From assembly GCA_015178975.1 (NCBI GenBank), contig WHVD01000281.1, forward strand, positions 1 through 64,000: DNA of 64,000 bases. The letters run 5' to 3'. Shown in pieces: positions 2,718 to 45,690 of this stretch. The notes under the pieces are model-generated. The model ran no database searches, was not told where the DNA came from, and worked only from the letters and a program-made list of their open reading frames with translations. The translations under genes were made by a program, and so were the position numbers. Within the stretch, counting starts at the first letter, position 1; the number at the start of each line of letters is the position of its first letter. Source of the stretch: Hysterangium stoloniferum. Taxonomy: Eukaryota; Basidiomycota; Agaricomycetes; Hysterangiales; Hysterangiaceae.

Positions 2718-3708
2718 TCAGTCTACATTTATGGGACTGTTCTTTTTCCCTGCTTCCTCAGCTATCTCCTCTGGGAGCTCCGCGACCTCCACGGCAACCC
2801 CGTCCTCATCCGATCCGGCATCCTCGGAACTCCCGACTTGCGGCTCCTTATAGACATAGCCGCCATACTCCGCCAGGAACTTCCAAAACTCCTCGCGGAG
2901 TCCGGACAGCTCCTTTGCCACCACAATTTGGACCTTGTTGCTCTTCTGGAGCAACTCATTTTGGGCCTCGATGCCCTCGGCGATCCGTCCAAGGACCTCG
3001 TCCAACCCGGACAACCCGTCCGTCCCGCTTATGTCTCGCGCCCCGGATCCCGTGGCCTGCTCGTGCACAAGCGAGCACCTCGCCTTGAGGTGCGCGCATT
3101 GATAACATCCCGGCCCCCGGCCGGCCTTTCGGTTGCATTCCATGTTCCAGTCGTTGCAACCGGAACACCGCGGCTCGTTCCGCGTCGGAAGACGGACTGG
3201 CGCCGCCTTCCTTGCCTTCTATTGATATGGTCAGTTTCTGCGGGTATTCCATGGACATGAGGCCTACCTTTTGGGGGCTCTCTGGCTCCCCCTCGGACTC
3301 CGACTCCACCTCTGTCGCTTTGCGCTGAAAATCACAAGTCAGTAAAAAAAAAAAATCGACAAGTTGAATATTGGTACTTACCTTTCCCGCAACAATGGCG
3401 GCCCTCTCCGCGGCCAACCGGGCTTTCTCCGCAGCCACCCGGGTGTTTTCCGCAGCCACTCGTGCAGCCTCCTCCGCCTCACGTTCCCTCTCCTTTGCGG
3501 CCTCTTCCTCCGCGGCCAATGCTTCCTGGTACTCTCTGTCCAGGGCCTCCTCAGCCTCCCTCGCCTCTCTCTCTGCTGCTTCACGAAGCTGGCGCTGCTC
3601 TTCTCGCCGCACCAACAATTGGGCCGCCGTCCACGGCGCCCGATACAGAGTGCCCGTGGAGGGCCCTGCTGTCGGCATTGGCTTGCGTGGTGTTGGTTTT
3701 GGTCCCAT
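2718..3708 (-). CDS. Retrotransposon-borne antisense gene: coiled coil plus Zn(II)2Cys6-like protein
   Basis: Model: complement(2718..3218, 3268..3324, 3382..3708), 294 aa, two introns (57 and 49 bp, GT-AG), both phase 0. The ATG at 3708 sits in ACCATGG context; a TATA-like box lies at 3760-3767. Residues about 25-109 are Glu/Arg/Ala-rich with heptad character (coiled coil). Exon 2 (110-128) is acidic. Exon 3 carries cysteines at about 146, 149, 156, 166, 169 and 176, spacing C-x2-C-x6-C-x9-C-x2-C-x6-C, which fits the fungal Zn2Cys6 cluster. A second amphipathic stretch (ILE-rich, LLQKSNK) follows. It runs convergent to pol, with stops about 210 bp apart. Function is inferred only: DNA or nucleic-acid binding, perhaps control of the element. 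It is open in all three exons although pol next to it is dead. Confidence 0.75.
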
Positions 3709-24705: not shown

Positions 24706-25445
24706 TGTTAAGAACTGAAAACTGACTAATGTCGGTGGGCCGATGGGGACTGATTGGAAGGACTTGGCTTCAGCTTATGTATGTGCTGCACCCTCGCAGT
24801 TATCTGTCGGGTGTCCTTAAATTTCAGGCGGGTGAAGACTAGTCCTAACGAATACCTCTTGGCAAAAACTACCGATCAGAAATGAAGGATAAGTCGAGTG
24901 TCGGGCCAGGGGACCGAGAGTGGGCGAGCGCACACGAAGGCAGACAGTGGAGTACTTAGTATGAGACTTCTGGAGGCGTAAGAGGGTATTCTGAGTCAAT
25001 ATTCTGATTGCCTAGTAACTACAACTACAGCGAGTTCATATACAAGTATCAGGCATCTAAAAAAACTAACTAGGAGAAGAGCGGAAAGCAGTATTGACAA
25101 ATAAGCTTGACTAGAAACGGGAAGGTTATGATTAGTTTGGAGGCTGTACATTAACCGAGAGCGGGATTACGAAAAAAGGAAAAAGTCCGAGAGTCACAAG
25201 TATATTTAGACATATGTGAAACATAGAGTAAAATGGATCATCATAATGAAAAGGGACATATCAGAGTCCAACCAGATAGTATGAGTATATTTTGATGGGG
25301 GCGTAAATGGAGTTTGATCACTGCGAAGGCATACGTCAGTGTCAGGAAACCAACAGCTTCTGATGTGGGGACTTGAGCAATGACTTGAATCATCGATAGG
25401 TGGCGATAACCTTGGGAACTGTCGGGTTGCGACACGGTCGTAACA
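24706..25445 (-). repeat. 3' LTR of element B (740 bp)
   Basis: On the plus strand it starts TGTTAAGAACTGAAAAC and ends ACGGTCGTAACA. It has an inverted core block (about 24755-24835) and the family start-site motif. The adjoining AGTATCCCCCCATTTTGG is the inverted polypurine tract. Confidence 0.92.
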
Positions 25446-25621
25446 GTATCCCCCCATTTGGCCGAAATCCCAAGGAGGCCGAAAAAATCTAGATTCCATA
25501 CATAAAAACTTTGTCGGGTACGGTTGGTGTGTCAAAACATCATGTGACTCAGTAAAAATTTACATATAAAAATTCGAGGGGTTCTGGCGCTTGAATTTTC
25601 ACTTCTCTTCCCTCAACCACC

Positions 25622-26601
25622 ATGACCATAGGTTTGGGGTCAAAGCCATTCCCGGTTTGGTTGACGGTCGCTCCCATGTCGGTCCTGAGTGGACCACCTA
25701 GTGCACAGGAACATCGATGCCTTCTCAAGGAGAAGAGGAAGGCGCACAAGGAGGAGGAGTGGAAAGAGAAGGAGGAGCTGGTGGCCATTGAGGTGGCAGA
25801 GAAGAAGCTGGCAGTGGAAGAGGCTGCGCGCAAGCACTGGGATGTGGTGCTTGTGAAGAAGAAGCAGTGGGAGGCCGATCAGGCATGAGAGGAGGCGGCG
25901 AAGAAAAAGCGAGAGGGGAAGGTAAGTGGGTTCCCATTTCTTTTGCGAACCTTTGCTGATTTTTTCTTTTTTTAGCACAAGGCTGCAACACCTTTGGAGT
26001 CCGATGATGAGGAGGAAGAGGAGGACGAGGAAGATGTACCGGGGCAGTCGAGCCCCAAGGTGGGTTTGGTTTCCTAATTTTAAAACTTTCTAATTTTTTA
26101 CAAGCCCCTAAAATGTGGCCTGAAAATAACCCCAAGTGCAGCCAGTGCACCAAATGGGGTTGGACTTGCCATCCTCGGGCAAGTGGTCGGGGCCACACCT
26201 GTCAAGAGTGTGCCAACCAAAAACTTGGATGCGTATTCCCAGATGCCGACGGAAATGGGTCCTACCAAGAATGGCAGGCCAATGCATTAGAGGAACAAAA
26301 CTGCCTCTTGCGCACCTATTTTTCGGAAATGACTCGGTACCGATTCGAGACGCTACGACAACAAGGGCTCATGACCGAGCAACTGCAATTATTGGGTGTC
26401 GGGTTGGACAAACAAACCAGCGTGATTGAGTTGCTCGGGGAGCAACTTGAACAGTATCTGGAAGTGTCAAGTTGCGATGGAGTTGGACCTGGAGTTGGGG
26501 TATCGGAAAAGGTTGGCGAAGAGGTGTCGGTGGCCATCAGTGAGGAGGGAGGCTCGGAAGCTGGGGAGGAAGGAGAAGTTGTGGAGGAAACCTTTAGATA
26601 G
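25622..26601 (+). pseudogene. Element B copy of the Zn(II)2Cys6-like antisense gene, broken
   Basis: The ATG at 25622 has a TATA box at 25565-25572. Exon 1 runs to 25921, with a TGA at 25886-25888 where element C has an Arg codon. Introns 25922-25975 and from 26060 keep their donors. The second acceptor area has lost about 15 bp compared with C, leaving exon 3 out of frame. Exon 3 (from about 26105) still keeps all six cysteines, spacing C-x2-C-x6-C-x10-C-x2-C-x6-C, and the downstream coiled coil to the stop at 26601. Confidence 0.8.
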
Positions 26602-29015
26602 TAAAAATATAAGGTTTTTAAAACAAAACAAACAAAGCGTGAAAACATAAGGCATAGTCAGGAAAAGGTTGGATACCACATGAGAGACTTAAACAGAATT
26701 TAGAGGACCAGGTTTATTCGGATAGGCTCGGTGAAACCCTAAAACAATTTCCGAGGCATTGCCGAGCTCTGTAGCTAGGATCCACGAAGTTTCTTCATCT
26801 GTACCTTCGTAGCCAGCCCATTTAACCAAATAAAGTAATTTGCATGAGCGTTGGCGATTGTCGATTTTCAAGTCTAGGATCTCTGATATCTCGAATTTGG
26901 GTTCTCCGTCAATGATCACGGGTGGCGGTGGTGGTTGTATGCGATCCAGTATTTTGTTAGCAACACATGGTTCTAACATAGATACGTGAAATACCGGGTG
27001 CACTGCACACATGTTGTCAGAAAGCCAAAGCGTCCATGAAAGCATGCCGGCTTGTGCTATAACTTCAAAAGGACCTAAATATTTTTCAGAGAGCTTCTTA
27101 GAGGGTCTAGTAGTTCGGAAAAACTCGGCATTAACGAATACTCGGTCTCCGATCTTGAAATCAGGAGGCAGAAGTCAATTCCTATCTGCAGACTGTTGGT
27201 ATTGTTCTTGGGCCATTGCGATAGTTTTACAAAGTTCTTGATGTAGCTCATCAAGGTTTATAACGAAGTCTTGAGCATGGGTGGATGCGAGATCGCATTC
27301 CAGGTGGATTGCGATATTGGGGTTGTAGCCTTTGTTTGTGAAGAAAGGTGAAATACCAGTAGTGGCATTCGGTGCATTGTTGTATGCAAATTCGGCTAGC
27401 GGTAGTAGTGATTTCCAATTGTCTTGTTGATAGTTACAATAGACACGAATGTACTGTTCCAAAGTTTGATTCATGCGTTCGGTATAGCCCGAAGTGAAAT
27501 GTAACTTCATGTCTAGTGCTTTTCTGAGTGACCTAAAAAAGTGAGAGACAAACTCGGATCCGCAATCAGATCTGACATGCGACGGAACGCCATGCTTGGA
27601 AAATACATGGGTGATGAATAATTCGGCTAACTGTACAGATGTTATCATGTCATATATTGGAATGAAAATACTTTGCTTCATGAGCCGATCCACAACAACT
27701 AGGATTGCTGTATGACCTTCGGATGCCAGTAGGTGCTCGATGAAATCCATAGAAATCGAGTTCCAGGGTTTTTCCGGTATTGGTAGTTGTTTGAGTAGGC
27801 TATATGGTTTGTGTCACTGTGATTTAGAGTGTAAATACGTTGTACAAGATTTGCAATAGTGCTTAATGAAATCTCGGATGCCGGGCCATATATATTCTCT
27901 TCTAATGAGTGAAAGAGTCTTATTGAGGCCAAAGTGTCCCAAGATCGGGTGGTCGTGCTTATGTTGTAGGATTCACAACCAAAGGGTATCGGAATCTGGT
28001 ACATAGATGCAGTTGTCAAGTCTAATGAAACCTTGTGAGTCTAGTGACCATCAGGGTTGATCGGGGTTGGACAGGTTATCGAGGTGTGCTTTGGTGACTG
28101 GGTCTGATGGAATTGCCAATAATATATCTTGATGTAATTTCTCAGTATCCATAAGAATAACACTTCGCAAGACTGGATGAATGAGGTAAGTGGCTCGGAT
28201 AGACATGGACAGTTGTTCTGATGAAAACATAGGCTTGAAATTATGCAGATTAACCATGGCATAGTCGCTACTCCACTCTTTAGGATAGACATCCCATCGT
28301 CTAGTCATAGCATCGGGTTTCCCACCAAGGTGGCCGGGATGGAAACGGATTACCATATTGAAATTGGAGAGGAATTCGGACCATTGGGCTTGCCGACAGG
28401 TGAGGAGTTTTGTGGTTGAAAAGTAGACTAAATTTTTGTGGTCGGTAATAACATCTATTGGGTGAGCCAATCCTTCCAAATAATGTTGCCATGCTTTGAA
28501 AGCTTCAAAGATCGCAAGTAGTTCTTTATCGTGAACATCATAGTTAAGTTCGGGTGCTGAAAATGTGTGAGACAAAAGGCTACTGGGTGTACTTCACCAT
28601 CAGTGTCCAAAATGGACAATATCGCAGCAAGTGCATAATCCGAGGCATCAGTTTCCACAATGAGTTGAACATCAGGCTTCCAGTGTGACAAAATAGGAGC
28701 AGATGTAAATGCACTTTTCAATTCTCAGAATGCCGTTCAGCATTCCTTGGAGAAATTCCATGGAGCGTCTTTACGAGTAAGACAAGTGAGCGGAACGGTA
28801 ATGTTTGAGTAGTTGTGAATAAAATGACGATAAAAATTGGTGAAGCCTAAAAAGGACTGAATATCCTTAACCTTTCGGGGTTCCAGCCAATCTTGAATGA
28901 CTTGAATTTTAGAGTTGTCCATGCGGAGACCATCAGGTCCCATCATGAAACCTAAATATTCAACTGTGTCGACATCAAAGAACATTTTTTACCATTCACG
29001 AAAAGACCATGTTTT

Positions 29016-30564
29016 TGTTAGTTTTTGTGGTTACGGCTCAAGGTGCAGAATCAGTAGCGCTGTATTATGTAATAATAATAACAGAGCTTCTTTGTCCACT
29101 GCACACATCATCCGGTCAGCATTGTCATATTTCGGTCAGCCATTTCTAACAGGTTACGGGCCCCGCCAGTGCATCAACTCTCATACTCTCTTTTCTCTTT
29201 CTCCACTTTTTATTTCAACATCTCGTACTACCACATCATCATGGTACAGCCTACCATATATGATTTACTTCGAACCTTCGATGACCAAAACAAATTCACT
29301 GGTGAAAATTATGGGATCTGGACTCAGGAGTTTGAGATGACTTTTGGAGAGGACATTGACTTTATGGAGCACATAAAGAGCTCATCAAAACCACTAAAGG
29401 ATGACACTACACTCCAGGCATGGCTCAAAGCAGACCAACGAGCTAGGGCAGCCCTCTACAAAACAATTTCATCGAACGCTGTTCGGACAACCCACTTCAA
29501 GGATACAACTCCACCACAAACTGCAAACGACGTTTGGCTGAGCCTCAAATCTGAATACAAAAAGGATTCTCATGCAGCCCGTTTTGAACTCAAGAAACGT
29601 CTTTATAATCCAGTCCATGACACCTCCAAACCAGTCTCACTCTATATCCAGGACATTGTTTCGGCTGCTGAAGAACTTACAACTCTTGGGCATGCACCCG
29701 CTGCAACAGATATTGTTGACTCCATTCTCATGAACCTCGACTCTTCTTTTGCAATCGTTCGGACTCTTCTCACATCAGGATCATTAGAGCCTACTCTTAC
29801 TATTGTTAAGAAAACCTTAACTGATCAAGAAGATACGAAAACTGCACTTAATGGCAGCACTCAGACCCAGGAACTTGAGGCAGCCTTGTATTCACAGAAG
29901 AGAGCAGGAAAAGGAAAAGGGAAATGGCGCCGAAAGAAGGATGATTCAGATTTGGACTCAGAGTCTGAGGGAGAAGCCCAGTTTGACTGGCTGAACCCAA
30001 AGAACAGGGACGTCTGTCATCGGTGTGGACGTCCGGGCCATCGGTCCTCACGCTGCATTGCTGATATGCCACAGAAGATCAAGGACAAAGTCATCAGTGA
30101 AGCAAAGTCTCGAAGACGGTTACATCAGTTGTCAGAAGATAACGCTGCTTACATTGCCCACATTGCTTCCAATTCCGACTCTGCCTCAAAATGGGACTCC
30201 AAGGAAGTGAAGGCCAACAATACTAATACTTGCGGCACTGGAGAACTTCCAACCCCAAAGGACGTTGGCCGAGCCACTCGCAGGGTGTTGCTGAGGATTT
30301 AGTTCTACAGTATATCACCGGGCCTTAAGTTCAGTGGGGGTTTTGCATTTTTAGTGAGAGTTATTTCATCTTCATTTATTTATTATCTCTTCTCTACCTT
30401 TACACTGCACCTCTTCTCCAAGTGGGGGTGTTAGTTTTTGTGGTTACGGCTCAAGGTGCAGAATCAGTAGCGCTGTATTATGTAATAATAATAACAGAGC
30501 TTCTTTGTCCACTGCGCACATCATCTGGTCAGCATTGTCATATTTCGGTCAGCCATTTCTAACA
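29016..30564 (+). mobile_element. Compact gag-only LTR retrotransposon (1549 bp), TSD GTTTT
   Basis: Two 136-bp LTRs (29016-29151 and 30429-30564; TGTTAG...TAACA) differ at two visible positions. They are flanked by GTTTT at 29011-29015 and 30565-30569, inside element B's RT. Right after the left LTR is GGTTACGGGCCC, like the copia primer site pairing with the initiator tRNA-Met anticodon arm. A purine tract (AAGTGGGGG) precedes the right LTR. The only coding region is gag; there is no protease, integrase or RT. It must move with proteins from another copia element. The layout matches non-autonomous TR-GAG elements known from plants. Confidence 0.9.
29241..30302 (+). CDS. gag: Intact copia-type Gag with a zinc knuckle (353 aa)
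   Basis: The start chosen is ATG 29241 (CATCATCATGG context, MVQPTIYDLL); an upstream in-frame ATG at 29169 would add 24 hydrophobic residues and is less likely. The body is the alpha-helical copia Gag (UBN2-like) fold: an N-terminal YGIWTQEF motif, then long charged helices. A basic stretch (KGKGKWRRKKD) and one CCHC knuckle (C259, C262, H267, C272: CHRCGRPGHRSSRC) follow, for RNA packaging in the cytoplasmic particle. It has no stops or frameshifts. It is followed directly by the 3' end of the element, not by pol. Confidence 0.88.
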   Translation: MVQPTIYDLLRTFDDQNKFTGENYGIWTQEFEMTFGEDIDFMEHIKSSSKPLKDDTTLQAWLKADQRARAALYKTISSNAVRTTHFKDTTPPQTANDVWLSLKSEYKKDSHAARFELKKRLYNPVHDTSKPVSLYIQDIVSAAEELTTLGHAPAATDIVDSILMNLDSSFAIVRTLLTSGSLEPTLTIVKKTLTDQEDTKTALNGSTQTQELEAALYSQKRAGKGKGKWRRKKDDSDLDSESEGEAQFDWLNPKNRDVCHRCGRPGHRSSRCIADMPQKIKDKVISEAKSRRRLHQLSEDNAAYIAHIASNSDSASKWDSKEVKANNTNTCGTGELPTPKDVGRATRRVLLRI

Positions 30565-30597
30565 GTTTTCAGAGTCTTCGGAGAACTTCACAAACAT

Positions 30598-32006
30598 TGT
30601 AAGTTCGTTACTAGGAAAATACCTAATAACCTGCGCGCAACGGTCAAGTCTTTATGATGGTCACTAACACAGTCGTTCTTGAAACCAGTCTATAACCAAA
30701 CACACTCGGAGCGAGAGGCTAGAGATCGGACCTTGGATGATGTAATCGAAGATGAATACAAAAGGCTGATGTAAGCCCAATGTCGTAGAATGTAGAACTT
30801 CAACAATAAGAGACACTATAGTATCCCTTACTGGCCGTAGGAGTGAGACTGAGAGTAAGACTTAAGAGATTGTCCTTAAGAATGAGCTTCGAAATGAGAT
30901 ACAATGAAATTGCTTGTTCAATAGTGGGCAAAAGAGAGGCCCTTATATACATGAGAGAGCACAGGTCAAAACAAACATCTAAAAACAACGACACAATAAT
31001 GATGCGATATGGTGTGAGTCATCTCTGAGTCATCACAATAGGAGTGTTAGTAAAGCTGTGAACAATAATAGGGGGAGGCTGCGCTGAACAATAAGAGAAT
31101 GACAAACAAAAGATGAGATCAGACATGTGATACAGATAAATGGGGAAACACAATAGAACAATAGGGGAAGTGAGTCAGACAATAGGGATGATGGAGTAAT
31201 AGAAGTGATGGCTGATGAAACATCGATGATATGAGTCAGAAACACAAGAATCCCATGATAATGTGTCACCCTCAAATGCTATGCTTGATTTCAAAATCTT
31301 GACAATATTACCAATCGATGAACCGAGATTGGATGTATTGTGTTCCTAGTTTTGCAGTATAAGGAGGGGACACAATCAATCACCATTTTAGAACCAGGTG
31401 GTGAGTAGGCTCCACAACCACACAAGGAACATGAATCAACAACGACCTCGATGAGGCTCTACTTGACTTCCCTCTGGAACCGGGGTCCTAAATAACTTGG
31501 GTCCTCTGTGATCTCCTATTGGAGTGAACGTTGCCATGTAATAGATTCCTGATGACAGTGGGGAACAGTCCTGCTGGAACACTCGATCGAATCGATAGTG
31601 GAGTATTTCGGAGAAGCCATCATAGTGTTCTATACGAATGAAGACAGGATCGTCTGGAGCATATGGGAGTCAAATACCTTGTCGACGGAGGAAACGATGG
31701 TATTTCTTGGAGGAGCATGAGTGGGCTGGTAGGGGCTTGGAAATGATGTCTGAGGATGAGGAGAAGTGAGAAGTTATTGGCTGGAGTTCTATTTGGGAGT
31801 GAAGAGTCGGTTTTGAGTAGGAACTGAGGGTTACTTTGGAGGACGATGCAGTGTTGAACATGATGGAGTTTTTGGTTGTCTGTTTGATGAAACTGATTTG
31901 GCTGTGTAGAAGTCGTCTTGAGTGCCAAAGTATATATAAGAATTTGTGCTGTGACGTGACTTGAAACTATAGCCATATTAGTCTCTTTCCGATTGAACTT
32001 TCTACA
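30598..32006. mobile_element. 1.4-kb insertion in element B's RT, probably LTR-derived
   Basis: Alignment of B with C shows extra DNA between ACTTCACAAAC (about 30595) and ACGTGTTCATC (32007). It starts TGTAAGTTCG and ends TTTCTACA, with ACAT before and ACGT after, a possible 4-bp duplication with one CpG change. On the minus strand GTATATAAGGGCC (about 30945) looks like a promoter. Short reading frames (for example 31620-31976, minus) are not recognised. It may be a long solo LTR of another family; no internal repeats were found. Confidence 0.5.
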
Positions 32007-33324
32007 ACGTGTTCATCATGAAGTGTAGGGTCTTCGGAGAATATGAGAATGTCATCTAAGTACACAATGATGAAGACATCAAGGGGGTCGGAGAAGACAT
32101 TGTTGATAAAACATTGAAAGACCGACGGAGCATTGGTGAGGCTGAAGGGCATCACTAACCATTCGAAAGAGCCATAGCGAGTGCAAAAAGCTGTTTTCCA
32201 TTTGTCACCTTCAGTGATCCAAACCAAATGATAGGCGTGCATGAGGTCTATCTTTGTATAGATTTGGACCTTCTGAGGGGCATCGAGTAAATCAGAGATT
32301 AGTGGTAACGGGTACTTATCTTTACGAGTGATCGCATTTAGTCCTCGAAAGTCAATGCAAAGCCGAAGGGAACCGTCTTTTTTCCGAACGAATAGGACAG
32401 GGGCTCCATAAGGAGACTTTGAGGGACGGATAAAACCTATAGCCAAATGTTCATCCAAGAAATCTCAGATAGCCAATAACTCGGACTGTGAGAGAGGATA
32501 AACTGGGCCTAGGGGCGGATGTGAACCATCTTCAATATCAATTTTCAAATCATAAGGCCTGTGAGGGGCAAGTCGATCAGCTTTTTGTTTACTGAAGACA
32601 TCTGCAAATTCATGGTATTTTTCTGGAACACCTTCCAAATCTGCGATCAGTTCGGTCACTGGGGATGCAAAGTGACCAGTGACTTCGTCAACTTTAAGAT
32701 TGACTGTAAATGCTTGGGAGCCGTCCAACTTGATGGCTCTCATAAAAGCTGTGGCATTTATTAGAGAGACGGGTGGCAGAGAGCTCAAATTTGCCATGGG
32801 GGCCGGAGGTGCCATAGAGGCCATATTTGCTGAAACAGGTGGAAATGGACCAGTCGTATCAGGTGCCAATGGGGTTCAGAAATGGATACTGCCCAATACC
32901 CAATCAATCAACAGATTGTAGCGGGTGAGCCAGTTATGTATGTCCTAGAACCACGGAGCAGCTCGGGTCCAACTGTGTTACAAAAAAATGTAACTGTCTG
33001 AAAGGTTCCCCAGGGGAACCGAAGTCGGAGCTCGCAGGCTTCCAAGATTATGGAGTTTGAAGTACCATCGAAGAGTCGGAGTGGAATTGGATCTATTGCA
33101 TGGGTTTTTAACTGATTTTTTTGGGAGAAACTTGTATCTATAAAACAATGGGTTGAACCTGAATCTATGAAAGCTCAAAAGGTGATACTCCCGAGGGGTT
33201 CCAAAGTAAGATTTATGAACAAGGAATTAGGATCATACAGGGCGGATGCGTTAAGATGACAATTTTCTGGTGTGCCGGGGAGATTCAATGCAACTCTCCA
33301 ACTGCACGGAATCCAGAGAGTTGC

Positions 33325-35255
33325 TTAATCTTTTTTTGACTCAGTAGCCAGCTTAGCCGGTTGTGAGGTCGTGGCCGTATTGGCCGATCGGGCTTTTGTG
33401 GCCTTCAGGCATGTGGCGACTCGGTGTCTGGGATCTGCACACAACAAGCAAAGGTTGTTTCCATTCAATGTTGCTTTTCCTGTGGTAGGAGTTTGCCATT
33501 GGAGCCAATTTTTCCAGTTAAGTCGGGTTTGTCTTTATCTTAAGACTTATTCAACTGTTTGCCCTTGCCTTTCTTGTCATTAGAACCCTTGTTTTCAGAC
33601 TTTTTATCGGAGTTCGAGTTGCTACTATTGTTGGTGTTTTGATTACCAGACTTGTTGGCATTCTTATTGTCCGATGATTTGTTGTCCAATGGGTTTTCAC
33701 GACTAATTTCCGACCGTCATTCCCAGTACCGGGTGTCTGCATTTTGGGCCTTTAGACGCATGAGGGGGAGAGTCTTCGGTTTGCCAGTCTCTCCTTTGGA
33801 AACTTTGTCTTTGAGGCAAGATGGGAGGCCAGAGTAAAACTGGTAATGGAGGGCCGAATCGCCCTAGTCACAACGTGCAGTGAGGTTGTTGAACTGGACA
33901 ATGTAATCAGTGTGTGAAGAGTGGTGGAAGTTCTAACCATTCTATATACGAAGAATATTGACCATTTAGGTACGATACCAGGATGTATTGACTGTCTAAG
34001 TCTAATACAGACTGAACGCGTATTGACTGCTTAGTTCAATACAGTAGAAAGAAGTGGCTATCTAAAGTAGGTAGATAGCTAGAATGAATAACTAGAATCG
34101 ACTGTTAAGTGCGATTCTGAATGACTACTCGAGTGCAAAGTAGAGTAACTAGAGAGTCGAATAATAGAGTAGCGTGGATGTAGTCCACGCAGGTTGAGAT
34201 AAGGATTGAGTTTCGACTGGTACAGTTTGAAACTCAGATTGAGTAGATAGCTAAAGCCCGTCTGTGACAGTCGAGACGATACACCAATCACAACTTACAG
34301 GACACTAACAGGTGTCTGGGTAAGTCGTGGTTGCGGTGTAAAAGTGTCTGAGTTCTAAACTACGGGTGCTAGAATACATAAGTCTGGCGTGTGTGCGCCC
34401 ACAAGAGTCGATGTACCGCATACATAGGTCGTCGAACTAATTATAGATATAATAAAAGAGAGAAAACAGAAATAATAAAGGAAATATAGTAAGAGCTCAT
34501 CCGACTATATTTCCTGAGTGTATTTCACCATACCTCTCACACAGTGATGCACTGGGTGTCTTTCATTTTGAGATTAGAGAGTGCGGTTTCGGCATTGCCG
34601 GTTTGGTCGTAGGGACTGAAGTTTGTTTCGAGTTCCTCAACAAAGGCATCCCAATTGTGAAGCCAATTGGGATCTTCGGAGGTGAGGCCGGAGAATGCGG
34701 GTTCAAACCAGGCTGCTGTGGAGTCCTTAAGGTAAGAGAGTGCAAAATTTATCTTTCAGTCATCCATTGCAAATGCAGCCGGGCAGTCCTGAAAGTTGAA
34801 TTGACATTGCATAAGAAATGTTGGCAATTTCTTCAGGTTTGAGCCAGTAAACGGCTCGGGTTTGTTGACTTGGGTTTGCCCAGGTTCTTTTTCCTTGGTA
34901 TTGTTTCTAAGGAATTCGTTAAGGGATCCTAGGGTACCTGAGAACAATTCCCATGTCTCATCAGGACCAAGAGCCAGTTTTTGTTTTGCGGATTTCTTAG
35001 AACCACTGGCCTGAGGTATTGGTTGGTCACCATCCTCGGGTTCAGGTTCCAGAGCTGATTGATTGTTATCCCCTTCAGGTGCATTGCTTCAGTAACTTCT
35101 TCAGCATCGCCGGTAATTTCCACAAAGTGGGATTCTTTAGAGGTTCCTGGTTGCGGGGTTCTCTGAGTAGCTCGGGCTGTATACAGGAAAGGAGACTTGA
35201 GAGTGGAAGATTCTGCTTTGCCACTTGGCTTGGCATCTTTTTTTCTTGGGGGCAT
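33325..35255 (-). pseudogene. gag: Element B gag, interrupted by a solo LTR
   Basis: Starts at ATG 35255 (MPPRK, as in element C), reads the Gag body, is split by the solo LTR 33913-34541, then continues through a TGA after RYWE (near 33720; Arg in C), an Asn/Lys-rich linker and a zinc knuckle region, to TAA at 33325-33327. The end TCA AAA AAA GAT TAA is the gag-pol overlap, with A AAA AAA available for slippage. Confidence 0.85.
33913..34541. repeat. Solo LTR of an unrelated family (629 bp) inside element B gag, TSD CAGTG
   Basis: Starts TGTGAAGAGTGG and ends CCTCTCACA, with a TGTGA/TCACA inverted end. It is flanked by CAGTG at 33908-33912 and 34542-34546. Element C has the uninterrupted site. 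It lacks the core block of the gypsy LTRs and is probably copia-type. Confidence 0.88.
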
Positions 35256-35292
35256 GATTAACGGAAAATGCGAGTGTGAAATCAGAATATAC

Positions 35293-36033
35293 TGTTAAGA
35301 ACTAAAAACTGACTAGTGTCGGTGGGCCAATGGGGACCGATCAGAAGGACTTGGCTTCAGCTTATGTGCTGCGCCCTTACAGTTAACCGTCAGGTGTCCT
35401 TAAATTTCGGCCAGGCGAAGACTAGTGCTAATGAATACCTCTCAGCAAAACTACCGATCAGAAACGAGGGATAAGTCGAGTGTCAGGCCAAGGGGTCGGG
35501 GACCAAGAGTGGGTGAGTGCACGCGAAGGTGGATAGTGGAGTACTTAGTATGAGACTTCTATAGATGTAAGAGGGTATTCTGAGTCAATATTCTGATTGC
35601 CTAGTAACTACAACTACAGCGGGTTCATATACAAGTATCAGGCATCTAAAAACACTAACTAGGAGAAGAGCGGAAAGTGGTAGTGACAAATAAGCTTGAC
35701 TAGAAACAGGAAGGTTACGATTAGTTCAGAGGCCATGAGATAACCAATAGTGGAATTACGAGAAAAGGAAATAGTCCGAGGGTTACAAGTATATATAGAC
35801 ATATGTGAAACATTGAGTAGAACGGATCATCATAATAAAAAGGACATATCAAAGTTTAACCAGATAGTACGAGTATATTTTGACGGGGGCGTAAACGGAG
35901 TTTGATCACCATGAAGGCATATGTCAGCATCGGGAAGCCAATGGTTTCCGATGTGAGGACTTGAATGATGACTTGAATTGTCGATAGGAGGTGATAACCT
36001 CAGGGACCGTCGGGCTGCGACATGGTTGTAACA
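35293..36033 (-). repeat. 5' LTR of element B (741 bp)
   Basis: Starts TGTTAAGAACTAAAAAC and ends TGGTTGTAACA. The primer site just inside (minus strand, to 35292) is the same as element C's. It abuts a copia-like LTR fragment at 36034 without a target duplication. Confidence 0.92.
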
Positions 36034-36514
36034 CCCACTATATGACTCTGACTGCTTGCTTTACCCAAAAGTCTAACACACCTCCTCGAGTGAAGGAGTC
36101 GTGCGGCATTTCTATTCTGCTAAAAGGTATACTCTCAGGTACTGTACTCCCTATCTTCGTCTGTTGAGCATAATGTCCTCTATCACCACAGAAGGAACAT
36201 GTGATCTCAGACACAGGCCATTTGTCACGAATCGATTATTCTTCAATAAAGTCAAATAATATTCTACAGATCAAATCGAAAGCCTCGTTCGACAAAGTAT
36301 ATATTCGCCCTGTCGATGAAGTAAGAGGCTATTACCAGTCACGAGAACTCATGGAAGTATTTGTCGAAGAAGTTACGACAAGTTAGAATTACTAGTATCA
36401 CTAGTTTACAGATATTTTGACTGACTTCCCTTGCTCCTTTCGTAGCCCTTTTATGCTTTTCTTCATATCATTATGACTATGTTATGAACTAATAATGAAA
36501 TCATATGTACATGA

Positions 36515-37235
36515 TGTTAAGAACTGGAAACTGACTAATGTCGGTGGCCGACAGGGACCGATCGGAAGGACTTGGCTTCAGCTTATGGGCTGCGCCCTCG
36601 CAAATATCCGCAGGATGTCCTTAAATTTCGGGCGGGCGAAGACTAGTCCTAGTGAGTACCTTTCGGCGTGATACCGATTGGAATCGAAGGACAAGTCAAG
36701 CGTCGGGCCAAGGGGTCGGGGCCGGGAGTGGGCGAGCGCACGCGAAGGCGGATGGGGGAAGTCTTAGTATGAGACTGATACAGGTGTATGAGGGTATTCT
36801 GAGTCGATATTCTGATTGTCTAGTTACTACAATTACAGCGGGTTCATATACAAGTAACAGGCGTCTGGAAAATACTAATGGGGAGACGGGCGGAACACGG
36901 TATTAACAATAAGCTTGACTAGGAACGGGAAGTTTATGATTAGTTCGGAGGCCGATGATAACCGAGAGCGGAATTACGATAAAAGGAAATGGTTCGAGGA
37001 CTACAAATATAGATAGACATATGCGAAACATAAGATTGAACGGATCAACATAATAAAGGGGACGTATCAAAAGTTTGACCAGACAATACGAGTTATTTGA
37101 CGTGGGCGTAAATGGAGTTTGATCTTCGCGAAACATTCGTCAGCTTCGGGGCCGATGGTTTCCGAGGGGACGGCTTGAAACGTTGACAAGTGGCGATAAC
37201 CTCGGGGCCGATAGGGTTGCGACACGGTCGTAACA
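36515..37235 (-). repeat. 3' LTR of element C (721 bp)
   Basis: Differs from the 5' LTR at about 36670 (GATTGG for GATCGG) and about 36822 (TAGTTAC for TAGTAAC). The inverted core block is at about 36570-36640. Confidence 0.96.
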
Positions 37236-37351
37236 GTATCTCCCCTTTTGGCCGAAATCCCAAGGAGGCCGAAAATCTAGATCCCGTACGTAAAAACTTG
37301 TCGGGTACGGCTGGGTGTGTCAAACATCATGTGACTCGGCAAAAGTTTGCA

Positions 37352-37359
37352 TATAAAAG
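37352..37359 (+). promoter_or_regulatory. TATA box of the element C accessory gene
   Basis: TATAAAAG, 50 bp before the ATG at 37409, with ATCATGTGACTC at about 37327-37338. The box lies in the element interior, about 115 bp from the LTR edge. It is at the same distance in elements A and B. Confidence 0.5.
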
Positions 37360-37408: not shown

Positions 37409-38384
37409 ATGACCATAGGCTCGGGGGCAAAGCCCTTCCCGGTTAGGTTAACAGTTGCACCCATGTCGGTGCCGAGTGGTACGGCGAACGCGAAAGAGCG
37501 TCGGCGTATACTCGAGCAGAAGAAAAAGGCGCGTGAAGAGGAGGAGCAGAAAGAGAAGGAGGAGTTGGCGGCCATCGAGGCCGAGGAAAAGAAACAGGCG
37601 GCAGAAGAGGCCGCGCGCAAGCACTGGGAAGCAGTGCTTGCAAAGAACAAGCAGCAGGAGGCCGATCGGGCACGGGAGGAGGCGGCGAAAAAGAAGTGGG
37701 AGGGAAAAGTGAGTCGGCTCTGGTGTCTTTTGCGAACCTTACTGACAATATCTGTTAGCGCAAGGCTGCAACGCCTTCGGAGTCCGATGACGAAGAGGGA
37801 GAGGAGGACGAGGAGGATGCACCGGGGCCGTCGAGCCCCAAGGTGGGTTCGGTTTCCTAAAATAAAACTTCCCAAATAATTTTTTATAGAAACAAAAGCA
37901 GGCCCCCAAGGCGGGGCCCGAAAATGACCCCAAGTGCAATCGGTGCACGAAACGGGGCCGAACCTGTCATCCCCGGACCAATGGTCGGGGCCGCACTTGT
38001 CAAGAGTGCGCTGATCAGAAGCTTGGGTGTGTTTTTCCGGGGGCCGATGGCTCATTCCAGGAGCGACAGGCCGATGCTCTAGAAGAGCAAAACCGCCTCA
38101 TGCGGACCTACTTCTCGGAGACGAGCCGGTACCGATATGAGATGTTGCGACAACAAGGGCTCGTAACTGAGCAATTGCGACTCTTGGGCGTCGGGCTGGA
38201 GAAACAGACCAGTGTTATCGAGTCTCTCGGTGGTCAACTTGAGCAGTATTTGGAAGTCTCGAGTTGCGGTGGGCATGAAATTGGGGTTTCGGAGAAGGTC
38301 GGTGATGTGGTATCGGTGGCTGTCGGTGCGGAGGTGGGTTCGGAGGTCGGAGAGGAGGGAGAAGTTGTAGAGGGAGAAAATTAG
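37409..38384 (+). CDS. Intact antisense accessory gene: coiled coil plus Zn(II)2Cys6-like protein
   Basis: Model: join(37409..37708, 37759..37842, 37890..38384), 292 aa; introns of 50 and 47 bp, GT-AG, both phase 0. The start is ACCACCATGACC. Residues about 28-100 form a Lys/Glu/Ala coiled coil; exon 2 (101-128) is acidic (SESDDEEGEEDEEDAPG). Cysteines 144, 147, 154, 165, 168 and 175 give C-x2-C-x6-C-x10-C-x2-C-x6-C with basic residues between, as in Gal4-type Zn2Cys6 domains. A second coiled coil follows (about 190-250: LEEQNRLMRTYF, GLVTEQLRLLGVGLEKQ), the usual place for a dimerisation helix. It is convergent to pol (stops 96 bp apart). The family is not known to me. A role as a DNA-binding regulator of the element or of target choice is inference. 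Confidence 0.82.
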
Positions 38385-38480: not shown

Positions 38481-41400
38481 TTATAAGGAATTGAGAGGAC
38501 CGGGTTTGTTCGGATAAGCTTGGTGAAACCCTAAAACGATTTCCGAGGCATTACCGAGCTCTGTAGCTAGGATCCATGAAGTTTCTTCATCTGTACCTTC
38601 ATAGCCAGCCCATTTGACCAAATAAAGTAATTTGCATGAGCGTCGGCGATTGTCGATTTTTGAGTCTAGGATTTCTGATATCTCGAATTCGGGTTCCCCA
38701 TCAATAATCACGGGTGGAGGTGGTGGCTGTATGCGATCCGGTATATTGTTAGGAACACAAGGTTCTAACATAGATACATGAAATACCGGGTGCACTGCAC
38801 GCATGTTGTCGGGGAGCCGAAGCGTCCATGAAAGTGTGCCGGCTTGTGCTATAACTTCGAAAGGACCTAAATATTTTTCAGAGAGCTTCTTAGAAGGTCT
38901 AGTAGTTCGGAAAAACTCGGCTTTAACGAATACTCGGTCTCCAATCTTGAAATCAGGAGGTGGAAGTCGGTTTTTATCCGCAGACCGTTGGTATCGTTCT
39001 TGAGCCATTGCGATAGTTTTACGAAGTTCTTGATGTAGCTCGTCGAGGTTTGTAACAAAGTCTTGAGCACGGGCGGATGCGAGATCGCGTTCCGGGTGGA
39101 TTGCGATGTTGGGGTTGTAGCCTTTATTTGCGAAGAAAGGCGAAATGCCAGTAGTGGCATTTGGTGCGTTGTTGTATGCGAATTCGGCCAGCGGTAGTAG
39201 TGATTTCCAATTGTCTTGTTGATAGTTGCAATAGACACGGATGTATTGCTCCAAGGTTTGATTCATGCGTTCGGTTTGTCCATCGCCTTCCGGGTGATAG
39301 CCCGAAGTGAAGTGTAACTTCATGTCTAGTGCTTTTCCGAGTGACCTAAAGAAGTGAGAGACAAACTCGGAGCCGCGATCGGATGTGACATGCGACGGAA
39401 CGCCATGCTTGGAAAATACGTGGGTAACGAATAATTCAGCTAACTGTACAGATGTTATCGTGTCATATGTTGGAATGAAAATACTTTGCTTTGAGAGCCG
39501 ATCCACAACAACTAGGATTGCTGTGTGACCTTCGGATGCCGGTAGGTGCTCGATAAAATCCATAGAAATCGAGTTCCAGGGTTTTTCCGGTATCGGTAAT
39601 TGTTTGAGTAGGCCATATGGTTTGTGTCGCTGTGATTTAGAGCGTAAACACGTAGTACAGGATTTACAATAGTGCTTAACAAAATCTCGGATGCCGGGCC
39701 ATGTATATTCTCTTCTAATGAGTGAGAGGGTCTTATTGAGGCCGAAATGTCCTGAGATTGGGTGGTCGTGCTTATGTTGTAGGATTCGCAGCCGAAGGGT
39801 GTCGGAATCCGGTACATAAATGCGATTGTCAAGTCGAATGAAACCTTGTGAGTCTAATGACCATCGGGGCTGATCGGGGTCGGACGGGTTATCGAGGTGT
39901 GCTTTGGTGACTGGGTCTAATGGAATTGCCGATAGCATGTCTTGATGTAACTTTTCGGTATCCATAAGGATAACACTTCGCAAGACTGGATGAATGAGGT
40001 AAGTGGCTCGGATAGATGCGGACAGTTGTTCCGATGAAAACATAGGTTTGAAATTATGCGGATTAACTGTGGCGTAGTCGCTACTCCCCTCTTTAGGATA
40101 GACGTCCCATCGTCTAGTCATAGCGTCGGGTTTTCCACCAAGGCGGCCGGGACGGAAGCGGATTACCATGTTGAAAGCGGAGAGGTATTCGGACCATCGA
40201 GCTTGTCGACGGGTGAGAAGTTTTGTGGTTGAAAAGTAAACTAAATTTTTGTGGTCTGTAATAACATCTACCGGGTGGGCCGAGCCCTCCAAATAATGTC
40301 GCCATGTCTTGAAAGCTTCAAATATTGCGAGTAATTCCTTATCGTGAACGTCGTAGTTGAGTTCGGGCGCCGAAAATGTGCGAGACAGAAAAGCTACTGG
40401 GTGTACTTCACCATCGGTGTCCAGAATGGACAATATCGCGGCAAGCGCATAGTCCGAAGCATCAGTTTCCACGATGAGTTGAACGTCGGGTTTCCAGTGC
40501 GACAAGATAGGGGCGGATGTAAACGCACTTTTCAATTCCTGGAATGCCGATCAGCATTCTTCGGAGAAATTCCACGGGGTGTCTTTGCGAGTAAGACGAG
40601 TGAGCGGAACGGTAATTTTTGAGTAATTGTGAATGAAACGGCGATAAAAATTGGCGAAGCCTAAAAAGGATTGAATATCTTTAACCTTTCGGGGTTCCGG
40701 CCAATCTTGAATGACTTGAATTTTAGCGTCGTCCATGCGGAGACCATCGGGTCCCATCATGAAGCCTAAGTATTCGACCGTGTCGACATCAAAAGAACAT
40801 TTTTTACCATTCGCAAAAAGACCATGTTTTCGGAGTCTTCGGAGGACTTCACGGACGTGTTCATCATGAAGTGTAGGGTCTTCGGAGAAGATGAGGATGT
40901 CGTCTAGGTACACAATGACAAAGACGTCAAGGAGGTCGGAAAAGACATCGTTGATAAAACGTTGAAAGACCGACGGAGCGTTGGTGAGGCCGAAAGGCAT
41001 TACTAACCATTCAAAGGAGCCATAGCGAGTGCGAAAAGCCGTTTTCCATTCGTCGCCTTCGGCGATCCGAACCAAATGATAGGCGTGTTTGAGATCTATC
41101 TTTGTATAAATTCGGGCCTTCCGAGGGGCGTCGAGTAAATCGGAGATTAATGGTAATGGGTACTTGTCTTTTCGAGTAATTGCGTTTAGTCCTCGAAAGT
41201 CAACGCAGAGTCGAAGGGAACCGTCTTTTTTCCGAACGAATAGGACAGGGGCTCCATAGGGAGACTTTGAGGGTCGGATAAAACCTATAGCCAAATGTTC
41301 ATCCAAGAAATCTCGGATAGCCGATAATTCGGACTGCGAGAGAGGATAAACTGGGCCTAGGGGCGGATGTGAACCATCTTCAATATCAATTTTCAAATCG

Positions 41401-42293
41401 TAAGGCCTGTGAGGGGCGAGTCGATCGGCTTTTTGTTTACTGAAGACATCTGCAAATTCATGGTATTTTTTAGGAACACCTTCTAAATCTGCGATCGGTT
41501 CGGTCACCGGGGATGCAAAGCGACCGGTGACTTCGTCAACTTTAAGATTGACTGTAAATGCTCGGGAGCCGTCCAAATTGATGGCTCTCATAAAAGCTGC
41601 GGCGTTTATTAGAGAGACAGGCGGCGGAGAGCTCGGATTTGCCACGGGGGCCGGAGGTGCTGTAGAGGCCATATTTGCCGAAACAGGCGGAAACGGAACA
41701 GTCGTAACGGGTGCCGACGGGGTTCGGAAATGGATACTGCCCAATACCCAATCAATCAACGGATTATAGCGGGTGAGCCAGTTATGTCCTAGAACCACGG
41801 AGCAGCTCGAGTCCAACTGTGTTACAAAAAACGTAACTGTCTGAAAGGTTCCACACGGGAACCGAAGTCGGAGTTCGCAGGCTTGCGAGATTACGGAGTT
41901 TGAGGTACCATCAAAAAGTCGGAGCGGAATCGGATCTATTGCATAGGTTTTCAACTGATTTTTTCTGGAAAAACTTGTATCTATAAAACAATGGGTTGAA
42001 CCTGAATCTATGAGAGCTCGAAAAGTGAAACTCCCGAGAGGTTCCGAAGTAAGATTTATGAACAAGGAATTAGGATCATACAATGCGGATGCGTTAAGAT
42101 GACAATTTTCCGGTGTGCGAGGAGATTCAACGCAACTCTCCAACCGCACGGAATCCAGAGAGTTGCTTAATCTTTTTTCGACTCGGCAGCCAGCTTGGCC
42201 GGTTGTGAGGTCGTGGCCGTGTTGGCCGATCGGGCTTTTGTGGCTTTTGGGCATGCAGCGACTCGGTGTCCGGGATCTGCACACAACAAACAA
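38481..42293 (-). pseudogene. pol: Element C pol: protease-RT-RNase H-integrase-chromodomain, one TGA
   Basis: A single frame from 42293 to 38481, interrupted only by TGA at 40551-40553 (after NFSEEC). Protease active site ALIDSGSTHCFID (about 41990). RT has LRLCVDFRGLN and the catalytic VIVYLDDIL (about 40910). RNase H has [11 protein letters not shown]. Integrase has H-H-C-C, the MDFIEH Asp, TSDRGSEF and GDGQTERMNQ. The chromodomain ends the protein (LLYLVKWAGYEGTDEETSW). Pol opens in the -1 frame relative to gag at the overlap near 42173. Only the one stop separates it from a full product, so read-through or very recent loss are both possible. Confidence 0.92.
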
Positions 42294-43466
42294 AGGTTGT
42301 TGTCCATTCGGCGTTGCTTTTCCTGTGGGAGGAGCTTGCCATCGGAGCCGAGTTTGCCAGTTAGGTCGGGTTTGTCTTTGTCTTGAGACTTATTCGACTG
42401 TTTGCCCTTGCCTTTTTTGTCGTTAGACCCTTTGTTTTCGGACTTCTTATCGGAAGTCGAGTTGCCAGTTATATTGGTGTTTTGGTTACCAGACTTATTG
42501 GCATTTTTGTTGTCCGATGATTTTTTGTCCGACGGGTTTTCGCGACTGATTTCCGAACGTCGTTCCCAGTATCGAGCGTCTGCGTTTTGGGGCTTTCAGG
42601 CGCATGAGAGGGAGGGTTTTCGGCTTGCCGGTCTCTCCTTTGGAGACTTCGTTTTTGAGGCGAGACGGAAGGCCGGAGTAAAACTGGTAACGGAGGGCCG
42701 AATCGCCCCAGTCGCAACGCGCGGCGAGGTTGTTGAACTGGACGATATAATCGGTGATGCGCTGAGTGTCTTTCATTTTGAGATTAGAAAGCGCGGTTTC
42801 GGCATCGCCGGTTTGGTCGTAGGGGCCGAAGTTGGTTTCGAGTTCCTCGACAAAGGCATCCCAATCGTGGAGCCAATCGGGGTCTTCAGAGGTGAGGCCA
42901 GAAAATGCGGGTTCAAACCAGGCTGCTGCGGAATCCTTAAGGTATGAGAGTGCGAAGTTTACCTTTCGGTCATCCGTTGCGAATGCAGCCGGGCGGTCCC
43001 GAAAGTTGAATCGACATTGCATAAGGAATGTCGGCAATTTCTTCGGGTTTGAGCCAGTAAATGGCTCGGGTTTGTTGACTCGGGTTTGCCCAGGTTCCTT
43101 TTCCTTGATATTGCTTTTAAGGAATTCATTAAGGGATCCTAGTGTACCTGAAAACAATTCCCATGTTTCTTCAGGGTCGAGAGCCGGTTTCTTCTTTGCA
43201 GACTTCTTGGAGCCACTAGCCTGAGGTTGGTCGCCATCCTCGGGTTCGTGTTCCGAAACTGGTTGATTGTTAATCTCCTCAGTTGCTTCGGGATCGGTTG
43301 CTTCAGTTACTTCTTCAGCATCGCCGGTAATCTCCACAAAGCGAGATTCTTCGGAGGTTTCTGGTAGCGGAGTTTTCTGAGTAGCTCGGGCTGTATACAG
43401 AAAAGGAGACTTGAGAGTGGAAGATTCTGCTTCGCCGCTAGGCTTGGCATTTTTCCTCGGAGGCAT
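42167..43466 (-). pseudogene. gag: Element C gag, one-base insertion
   Basis: ATG 43466 (MPPRKNAKPSG). The Gag body (PEPFTGSNPKKLPTFL, a Ty3-type capsid region) is open to codon 323, but a one-base insertion near 42585-42597 relative to element B shifts the frame and gives a stop at 42495. In the shifted frame the Asn/Lys linker and the knuckle CLLCADPGHRVAAC (near 42290) continue to TAA at 42167-42169. At the end, TCG AAA AAA GAT TAA precedes a switch to the -1 pol frame. Confidence 0.85.
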
Positions 43467-43504: not shown

Positions 43505-44225
43505 TGTTAAGAACTGGAAACTGACTAATGTCGGTGGCCGACAGGGACCGATCGGAAGGACTTGGCTTCAGCTTATGGGCTGCGCCCTCGCAAATATCCG
43601 CAGGATGTCCTTAAATTTCGGGCGGGCGAAGACTAGTCCTAGTGAGTACCTTTCGGCGTGATACCGATCGGAATCGAAGGACAAGTCAAGCGTCGGGCCA
43701 AGGGGTCGGGGCCGGGAGTGGGCGAGCGCACGCGAAGGCGGATGGGGGAAGTCTTAGTATGAGACTGATACAGGTGTATGAGGGTATTCTGAGTCGATAT
43801 TCTGATTGTCTAGTAACTACAATTACAGCGGGTTCATATACAAGTAACAGGCGTCTGGAAAATACTAATGGGGAGACGGGCGGAACACGGTATTAACAAT
43901 AAGCTTGACTAGGAACGGGAAGTTTATGATTAGTTCGGAGGCCGATGATAACCGAGAGCGGAATTACGATAAAAGGAAATGGTTCGAGGACTACAAATAT
44001 AGATAGACATATGCGAAACATAAGATTGAACGGATCAACATAATAAAGGGGACGTATCAAAAGTTTGACCAGACAATACGAGTTATTTGACGTGGGCGTA
44101 AATGGAGTTTGATCTTCGCGAAACATTCGTCAGCTTCGGGGCCGATGGTTTCCGAGGGGACGGCTTGAAACGTTGACAAGTGGCGATAACCTCGGGGCCG
44201 ATAGGGTTGCGACACGGTCGTAACA
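43505..44225 (-). repeat. 5' LTR of element C (721 bp)
   Basis: TGTTAAGAACTGG to GTCGTAACA on the plus strand. It appears identical to the solo LTR at 50911-51631. TATATGAA box (inverted) at 43833-43840. Confidence 0.96.
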
Positions 44226-44246
44226 CATGACGTCGAAATGAGACAT

Positions 44247-44999
44247 TGTTACAACCGTGTTGCAACCCGACAGTCCCCAAGGTTATCGCCTCCTATCGAC
44301 AATTCAAGTCATCATTCAAGTCATCATTCAAGTCCTCACATCGGAAACCATCGGCTTCCTGATGCTGATGTATGCCTTTGCAGTGATCAAACTCCGTTTA
44401 CACCCCTGTCGAAATATACTCATACTATCTGGTTAAACTTTGATACGTCCCTTTTATTATGATGATCCATTCTACTCGATGTTTCACATATGTCTATATA
44501 TACTTGTAACCCTCGGACTATTTCCTTTTCTCGTAATTCCACTATCGGTTATCTCACAGCCTCCGAACTAATTGTAACCTTCCCGTTTCTAGTCAAGCTT
44601 ATTTGTCACTACCGCTTTCCGCTCTTCTCCTAGTTAGTGTTTTTAGACACCTGATACTTGTATATGAACCCACTGTAGTTGTAGTTACTAGGCAATCAGA
44701 ATATCGACTCAGAATACCCTCTTACATCTATAGAAGTCTCATACTAAGTACTCCACTATCCACCTTTGCGTGCACTCGCCCACTCTCGGTCCCCGACCCC
44801 TTGGCCCGACACTCGACTTATCCCTTGTTTCCGATCGGTAGTTTCACCAAGAGGTATTCATTAGGACTAGTCTTCGCCTGCCCGAAATTTAAGGACACCC
44901 AACGGTTAACTGTGAGGGCACAGCACATAAGCTGAAGCCAAGTCCTTCCGATCAGTCCCTGTCAGCCCACCGACACTAGTCAGTTTTTAGTTCTTAACA
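44247..44999 (+). repeat. Solo LTR of the C family (753 bp), TSD GACAT
   Basis: Starts TGTTACAACCGTGTTGC, ends TAGTTCTTAACA, flanked by GACAT at 44242-44246 and 45000-45004. It lies 21 bp from element C in opposite orientation and is more diverged, so it is the older insertion. Excising both restores a continuous gag remnant of the old copia-like element. Confidence 0.95.
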
Positions 45000-45339
45000 G
45001 ACATGTCGAAAGAGATTCAATGTTGTTGAATAATGTTCAGGTTTGTCGAGTCGAATTTGATGTGTCGAAGAGTTGTCAAAAGTTACCTTTGAATATTTGT
45101 GACAGTTTTGTGACTTGTGATGGTTGTGACACCATTTACCGTTGCTGCGAACGACAAGTGCAGTATCTGGGTTGGGACAAATTCTGGTGGATGACCTTTG
45201 GTACACCTCCTCATTCGTGAGATGGGTGATGACACTATCGAGAGTCAGTTGGTCAAAGGGGGGGAATCGAGTCAAGGGTGACAATGAGGGTGGAGTAATC
45301 TTCTGGGATGTTCCAGTGTGCTTTCAATTCAGGCTTCAG

Positions 45340-45690
45340 TTTGGGTTAGGTGCACGCTGTTCAACAAGGTGTGGCTGACAGTTTGGTTCGATGTGTGATG
45401 CTTTTCAATGAGGCCTCCACGGATTCAGGTTTGGGTTCAGTGTGCAATGCTTTTCAATGAGGTATCCACAGTTTGGGTTTGGGTTCAGTGTGCGACACTT
45501 TTCAATGAGGTGTCCACAGGTTCAAGTTCAGGTTCAGTGTGTGACGCTTTTCAACAAGGTGTCCATGGGTTTGGGTTCAGGTTCGGCATGCGATGCTTTG
45601 CAAGAAGGCATCCACGGTTCCGATTCAGGGTCGATGTGCGACACTTTTCAACGAGGTGTCCATGGTTCCAATTTAGGTTTGACTTCATAG
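45340..45690. repeat. Tandem repeat, 48-49 bp unit, about six copies
   Basis: Units begin AATGAGG or AACGAGG, then TGTCCACRG, then GGTTCAGTGTGCGAYRCTTTTC. Lengths by count are 48 or 49. On the minus strand a 16-codon unit with EPEPKP and a TSLKSVAH-like part can be read, but the 49-bp copies break the frame. It lies just 5' of the old element's gag remnant. Confidence 0.7.

Follow-up and report, generated by a model that had tools for sequence, protein, structure and literature searches.

A chromovirus family of Hysterangium stoloniferum carries an antisense gene for a predicted Zn2Cys6-like protein beside its 3' LTR

Why many Ty3/gypsy retrotransposons keep an antisense gene beside the 3' long terminal repeat (LTR) is an open question, and the function of such a gene is called unknown in the portions consulted of two reports (PMC7264820, PMC11963269). 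We take up this question at a locus of Hysterangium stoloniferum (contig WHVD01000281.1, positions 1-64,000; this whole 64,000-nt stretch is called the window here), where a complete Ty3/gypsy element lies on the minus strand from 44225 to 36515, with gag, pol and two 721-bp LTRs that are 99.72% identical. Between the end of its pol (38481) and its 3' LTR, three GT-AG-bounded exons on the plus strand encode a protein of 292 amino acids (aa), which consists in order of a short N-terminus, a charged stretch, the sequence GKRKA, an acidic linker, the sequence SPKKQK, a cluster of six Cys, a predicted 73-residue helix and an acidic tail. An earlier note on this DNA had described the gene with the same coordinates, strand, exons and length, the same 2-6-10-2-6 Cys spacing, acidic linker and placement, and in all of these we agree with it.

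The way in which copies of this gene differ within the 111-Mb genome assembly (554 contigs) indicates that the antisense frame is a real gene under purifying selection and not a chance frame. When 50 copies were compared with the window copy without filtering, the differences at the three codon positions totalled 691/856/1783; the third position was highest in 39/50 copies, and among the 21 copies with 40 or more differences this held for 20. A per-pair comparison of all six frames identified the antisense frame as the coding one. All six Cys codons are kept in 48/50 copies of family A, the family of the window's main element, again with no filter for intactness. The ratio of nonsynonymous to synonymous divergence (dN/dS) between the window copy and nine divergent intact copies (L033, L034, L035, L036, L038, L039, L043, L045 and L046) is 0.10-0.37, for example 0.12 for L034 (dS 0.61), 0.17 for L035, 0.29 for L043 and 0.11 for L046, whose dS of about 2 is near saturation. 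In very close copies so few sites differ that the ratio varies widely, from 0.12 to 1.19. The same kind of comparison gives a pol dN/dS of 0.06-0.23 in 14/15 loci; the pol value of L045 is 0.68 because its alignment breaks off, and the pol of L034 is in part poorly aligned. The loci were the 30 best matches plus 20 chosen by hand, many of them stop-free, so that their intact fraction is not a rate; frames shorter than 280 aa or without six Cys were dropped, which kept 34/52 rows, or 33/51 places given that the window and L002 are one place, and left out the gene of L047. This choice of rows for open frames and six Cys lowers dN somewhat and must be set against the selection argument. The splice pattern likewise recurs: 31 of the 34 intact rows have CTGAC or CTAAC in intron 1, and in the 34 rows the lengths of intron 2 leave remainders of 16/7/11 on division by three while the spliced frame holds. 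The TATA, ATG and GT/AG sites are found again down to copies with 64% spliced protein identity; L001 is without the 5' part of the gene. Older copies (e.g. L034-L043) also show, by eye, several replacements of R by W, Q or H; these look like methylation-linked C-to-T decay at CpG.

A search of the genome with the gene gave at least 225 exon-level matches, which are matches and not a count of copies. Among the best 100 pol ends listed, that is, the closest pol copies, 73 are accompanied, on the other strand and at a median distance of 106 nt, by an exon 3 that is itself among the matches listed, and three of the other 27 were fetched, two with a divergent gene (L084, L085) and one with an internally deleted gene (L086). 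Judged by these best 100 pol ends, the antisense gene is carried by most copies of the family. A version of it also accompanies a second gypsy pol, here family B, which lies on the plus strand at 1-4 kb of the window (about 76% nucleotide identity). The family B gene starts with an ATG at 3708, has a TATA-like box and a CX2CX6CX9CX2CX6C cluster, and encodes a protein about 30% identical to that of family A, with the same exon order and with introns at the same two places (GK/RKA and SP..K/, where the slash marks the intron). It has at least 201 exon-level matches in the genome, and of 15 copies fetched several show the full exon structure; the remaining ones are either broken or beyond what the splice search could resolve. 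Upstream, blocks next to the presumed polypurine tract are common to the two families, as is TGTGTCA..TCATGTGA, and their U3 regions do not align. Since both families have the same gene, it either predates their split or passed between them. Many family B matches were seen, without a formal count, within a few kb of the first base of a contig (e.g. C33:513, C545:844, C103:971), which could be either subtelomeric clustering or assembly breaks at repeats.

What kind of protein does the gene encode? The Cys spacing fits the Zn2Cys6 pattern CX2CX6CX5-12CX2CX6-8C, with X10 in family A and X9 in family B. When 37 distinct cluster regions were compared as a profile (hhalign) with 11 Zn2Cys6 domains of the host (those of 18 Zn_clus stretches with the pattern in one open frame), all six Cys were aligned at a probability of 89% and a score of 32.2, which 0/100 Cys-preserving column shuffles reached (mean 16.6, maximum 30.7); family A alone gave 87%. 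This comparison links the six-Cys domain to fungal Zn2Cys6 domains beyond the Cys spacing. A search of the PDB with a three-sequence profile gave 13 weak rows (E 0.84-8.7), which include LAC9, LEU3 (twice), RSC3 and S. pombe C27B12.11c; a cytochrome P450 ranked first (E 0.12). In the AlphaFold models of both families, short helices follow the first Cys and lie at the fourth; in family A the cluster is followed by a single 73-residue helix with a pLDDT (AlphaFold's confidence measure) of 89-94 over exon 3 residues 61-120, and in family B the corresponding helix is of low confidence.

Several results weigh against this assignment. The whole protein has no match to Pfam PF00172 (Zn_clus), and three pieces of protein score 12.5, 10.4 and 14.9 bits, all below the 21-bit gathering cut-off; we therefore call the protein Zn2Cys6-like and not a filed member of the family. 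Family B alone is linked less well to the host domains (67%), the Cys region of the models is of low confidence, with a pLDDT mostly below 50, and Foldseek searches with the models returned no useful relative. The earlier note had read the domain as Gal4-type and proposed to check this by searching the spliced protein against PF00172 and by structure prediction. The first check falls short of the cut-off and the second gives a confident helix after the cluster in family A and low confidence in the Cys region; what speaks for a Gal4-type domain is the conserved six Cys, also present in family B, the profile-profile similarity and the weak PDB rows. The note had also placed coiled coils on both sides of the cluster, of which the C-terminal one is supported, as a predicted helix only.

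If the protein binds DNA, the element's own U3 offers candidate sites, since the U3 edge of each family has its own CGG-type motif. In the main element this is TCGG-GG-CCGA, which occurs twice. Among loci L002-L030 both N2 sites are present in 24/29 and at least one in 28/29, and L086 has both; L045-L047 have TCGG-N4-CCGA in 3/3, with the half-sites kept and spacers of GGAA, GGGT and GAAA, and L048 has N4 and N3 sites. These counts cover rows whose LTR edge fitted a pattern, and L001, L050, L084 and L085 gave none. In family B, the final 170 nt of the LTR contain GTCCGG four times (P 0.016, order-1 resampling, as for the P values that follow), and in the A1 U3 edge a CGG-armed palindrome is reused with one spacer (P 0.0018). 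We take TCGG-Nx-CCGA to resemble known Zn2Cys6 targets and regard the repeated motifs as candidate binding sites. Counting against them are that the CGG motifs were chosen after looking, that a palindrome with any arms and a spacer of 2-4 has a P of 0.06, and that k-mer repetition in the LTR plus leader is not clearly raised over resampling, the observed value being reached by 15-31 of 200 resamples for A1 and by 39-115 for A2. The older copies L031-L044 also have both sites in only 3/14, one in 6/14 and no N2-4 site in 5/14, while LTRs in the window have both in 3/8, one in 1/8 and none in 4/8, and L049 has none.

Gene and U3 edge also appear to travel together. In 100-nt steps, L046 matches the window at 96-100% from about 38.8 to 41.2 kb (the part of pol compared). 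Identity is then 84-93% where pol ends in the chromodomain, about 72% in exons 1 and 3, and 71-86% at and near the U3 edge, while the remaining LTR is 80-95% identical; L047 shows a similar pattern (pol 94-100%). Synonymous divergence of L046 is 0.036 in pol, 1.07 in the chromodomain, whose protein has hardly changed (dN 0.016), and 1.96 in the gene, and therefore one pol backbone carries two gene types that were long separated. Within each type the gene is under purifying selection, as shown by dN/dS of 0.16 for L045 against L046 and of 0.20 and 0.37 for L029 and L033 against the window. From the alignment, the antisense gene and U3 edge of L046 were exchanged as a block, that is, as a swapped module. 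Other pairs also show a gene dS above the pol dS, by up to about threefold (L034 0.61/0.22, L035 0.39/0.14, L039 0.35/0.16, L043 0.30/0.13, L038 0.29/0.17 and L036 0.17/0.14), L033 (0.12/0.14) being different. A point against a functional reading of the swap is that the gene adjoins the U3 edge, so that one recombination could move both without any functional link. U3 diversity with recombination is described for the fungal crapaud elements in the part consulted of PMC10787394.

Weighing these data, we find it somewhat probable that the element family encodes a predicted Zn2Cys6-like coiled-coil DNA-binding protein, which would likely bind CGG-type sites in the element's own U3 and switch its promoters. 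That the element encodes its own DNA-binding protein, as the earlier note proposed, we infer as the best explanation. RNA would start rightward from the TATA box at 37352 and be spliced, and the protein would dimerise through the helix after the cluster, enter the nucleus through the basic runs flanking the acidic linker and bind the paired TCGG-N2-CCGA sites. Since these sites lie between the antisense TATA box and a TATA-like box at 37005 in the LTR, a candidate for the LTR promoter, one factor could act on both promoters. Our first choice is activation, with self-amplification in trans across copies, over repression, because of the acidic stretches. The introns may have survived because, in an antisense gene, splicing of the genomic RNA does not remove them. 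More tentatively, the gene and its matching U3 operators could form one exchangeable specificity module, whose swap gives the same pol backbone a new and separately controlled promoter and lets families escape each other's or the host's control; we count this as possible, with the odds somewhat against it.

Activators have acidic stretches more often, and most fungal Zn2Cys6 factors activate. Both points speak against a negative regulator or copy-number control of the HBZ kind, made from the 3' end of the provirus and lowering 5' LTR transcription so as to spare the host, as does the lack of a bZIP domain among Pfam matches at E up to 10. The gene does match hbz of human T-cell leukaemia virus type 1 (HTLV-1), as given in the excerpt used (PMC10186651), in position, strand and predicted splicing, and transcription convergent with pol could add interference, yet we judge such a repressor unlikely. 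The family-specific motif at each U3 edge and an antisense protein that differs much where pol hardly does (L046) would suit an anti-silencing factor resembling VANC of the Arabidopsis VANDALs, which acts through short motifs in its own element's non-coding DNA according to the portion consulted of PMC5735166, or, as a variant, an aid to site choice by the chromodomain integrase, in that chromodomain DNA moves together with the gene in L046/L047. However, the chromodomain protein is nearly the same on both sides of the exchange, so that a change of gene probably left its specificity as it was, and we consider anti-silencing or chromatin targeting quite unlikely. Improbable in our view is a replication helper for packaging, nuclear import or RNA export, whose Cys cluster would bind RNA or cDNA: basic clusters and charged helices would fit, and the CERV protein of Cer1 is required for nuclear export of genomic RNA (PMC10309623, seen in part), but the nearest domain by profile is the DNA-binding Zn2Cys6 domain and a separate antisense promoter would be odd for a packaging protein.

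Positions of the antisense gene, its candidate control sites and the element that carries it (window coordinates)
Feature	Position	Strand	Details
Exon 1	37409..37708	+	residues 1-100; N-terminus, charged, probably helical stretch
Intron 1	37709..37758	+	50 nt, GTGAGT..TTAG, GT-AG; CTGAC branch-like site
Exon 2	37759..37842	+	residues 101-128, acidic linker
Intron 2	37843..37889	+	47 nt, GTGGGT..ATAG, GT-AG; 46-63 nt among 34 intact rows
Exon 3 with stop	37890..38384	+	zinc cluster, long helix, acidic tail
Six-Cys cluster CX2CX6CX10CX2CX6C	37935..38030	+	residues 144-175
Predicted 73-residue helix after cluster	38046..38264	+	possible coiled coil; AlphaFold
TATA box of antisense gene, within CATATAAA	37352..37357	+	57 nt 5' of ATG
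Leader block GGCCGAAATCCCAAGGAGGCCGAAAATCTAGAT	37250..37282	+	adjoins presumed polypurine tract; in part common to family B
Leader block TGTGTCAAACATCATGTGAC	37316..37335	+	in part common to family B
Candidate operator 1, TCGG-GG-CCGA	37146..37155; 5' LTR copy 44136-44145		U3
Candidate operator 2, TCGG-GG-CCGA	37202..37211; 5' LTR copy 44192-44201		U3
3' LTR	36515..37235	-	721 bp; sense = minus strand
5' LTR	43505..44225	-	
Target-site duplication CATGA	36510..36514; second copy 44226-44230		flank letters
gag open frame	42498..43466	-	Retrotrans_gag
pol	38481..42389	-	protease, reverse transcriptase, RNase H, integrase, chromodomain; two open pieces
Chromodomain, end of pol	38526..38687	-	DNA falls inside block exchanged in L046/L047
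Decayed copy of the gene	25622..26538	+	inside older nested element 24705-36034; exon 3 about 75% aa identity
Family B version of the gene	2718..3708	-	exons 3708-3382, 3324-3268, 3218-2718 with stop; 294 aa

The element belongs to the chromoviruses: of its Pfam domains, RVT_1, RNase H and rve exceed their cut-offs and Chromo is just under its own (24.3 bits against 25.1, E 3e-5). The pol of the window copy is interrupted by an in-frame stop at 40551-40553. An apparently solitary LTR at 50911-51631 matches the 5' LTR of the main element without a difference over 721 nt, which suggests a very recent LTR-LTR loss. Adjoining the main element at 44247-44999 is an LTR of another subtype in opposite orientation, and 44314-45000 is 93% complementary to 35292-35978 over 687 nt, a potential large inverted repeat; a tandem array of 48-49 nt repeats lies beside the element at 45385-45674. 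Elsewhere in the window, two 140-nt direct repeats (98%) at 29016-30568 surround about 1.4 kb with one 406-codon open frame, which to the eye resembles a Copia gag that includes a CCHC knuckle. The whole looks like a non-autonomous LTR element with gag alone, inserted into the older gypsy copy. A 284-codon open frame at 5164-6018 (+) resembles by eye a Tc1/mariner-type DDE transposase.

If our favoured reading of a self-encoded DNA-binding protein is right, a retrotransposon carries a dedicated transcription factor, which would also be a route for the spread of such factors in fungi. The protein comes close to a fungal family of DNA-binding proteins that is well understood, its candidate sites are about 10 bp long, and two families as well as a natural swap can be compared, so that the question posed at the outset becomes testable. 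The earlier note knew of no Ty3/gypsy accessory gene of this kind, which is too strong, since the excerpts of PMC11963269 and PMC7264820 describe genes of antisense orientation between pol and the 3' LTR in the plant elements Retand, Grande and RIRE2 and in fungal Boty. By the same excerpts, the plant elements with an antisense open reading frame (aORF; TRP28 domain, PF04195) are alike in place, strand, presence in most copies or clusters and predicted DNA binding. They differ in being of another host kingdom, whereas the gene described here has a six-Cys cluster, two introns and a chromovirus backbone, and TRP28 was absent among its Pfam matches at E up to 10. The brtn gene of Boty-like Ty3/gypsy elements in Botrytis cinerea is alike in its antisense position, by the description in those sources. 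HTLV-1 hbz is, according to the portion consulted of PMC10186651, antisense, spliced, made from the 3' end of the provirus and codes for a coiled-coil (bZIP) transcription factor lowering 5' LTR expression; it belongs to a retrovirus, no zinc cluster is mentioned there and its transcripts start inside the LTR, whereas the TATA box here is internal, beside U3. With the fungal Zn2Cys6 factors (PF00172; LAC9, LEU3, RSC3) the protein has in common the six-Cys spacing, profile similarity beyond the Cys and a predicted helix after the cluster, but it is below the Pfam cut-off, encoded antisense by a retrotransposon and has hundreds of exon-level matches in one genome. VANC of the VANDAL transposons offers, as described in the part of PMC5735166 consulted, an element-encoded protein with family-specific short motifs in non-coding DNA, although these are plant DNA transposons, binding is shown for VANC and only predicted here, and the likeness is drawn from descriptions. 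In position and strand the gene is thus of the same kind as the plant aORF-3R genes, fungal brtn and HTLV hbz; our literature search found no antisense gene of this placement described with a zinc cluster, and what looks new is the zinc-cluster protein, the presence of introns in its gene and the exchange together with U3.
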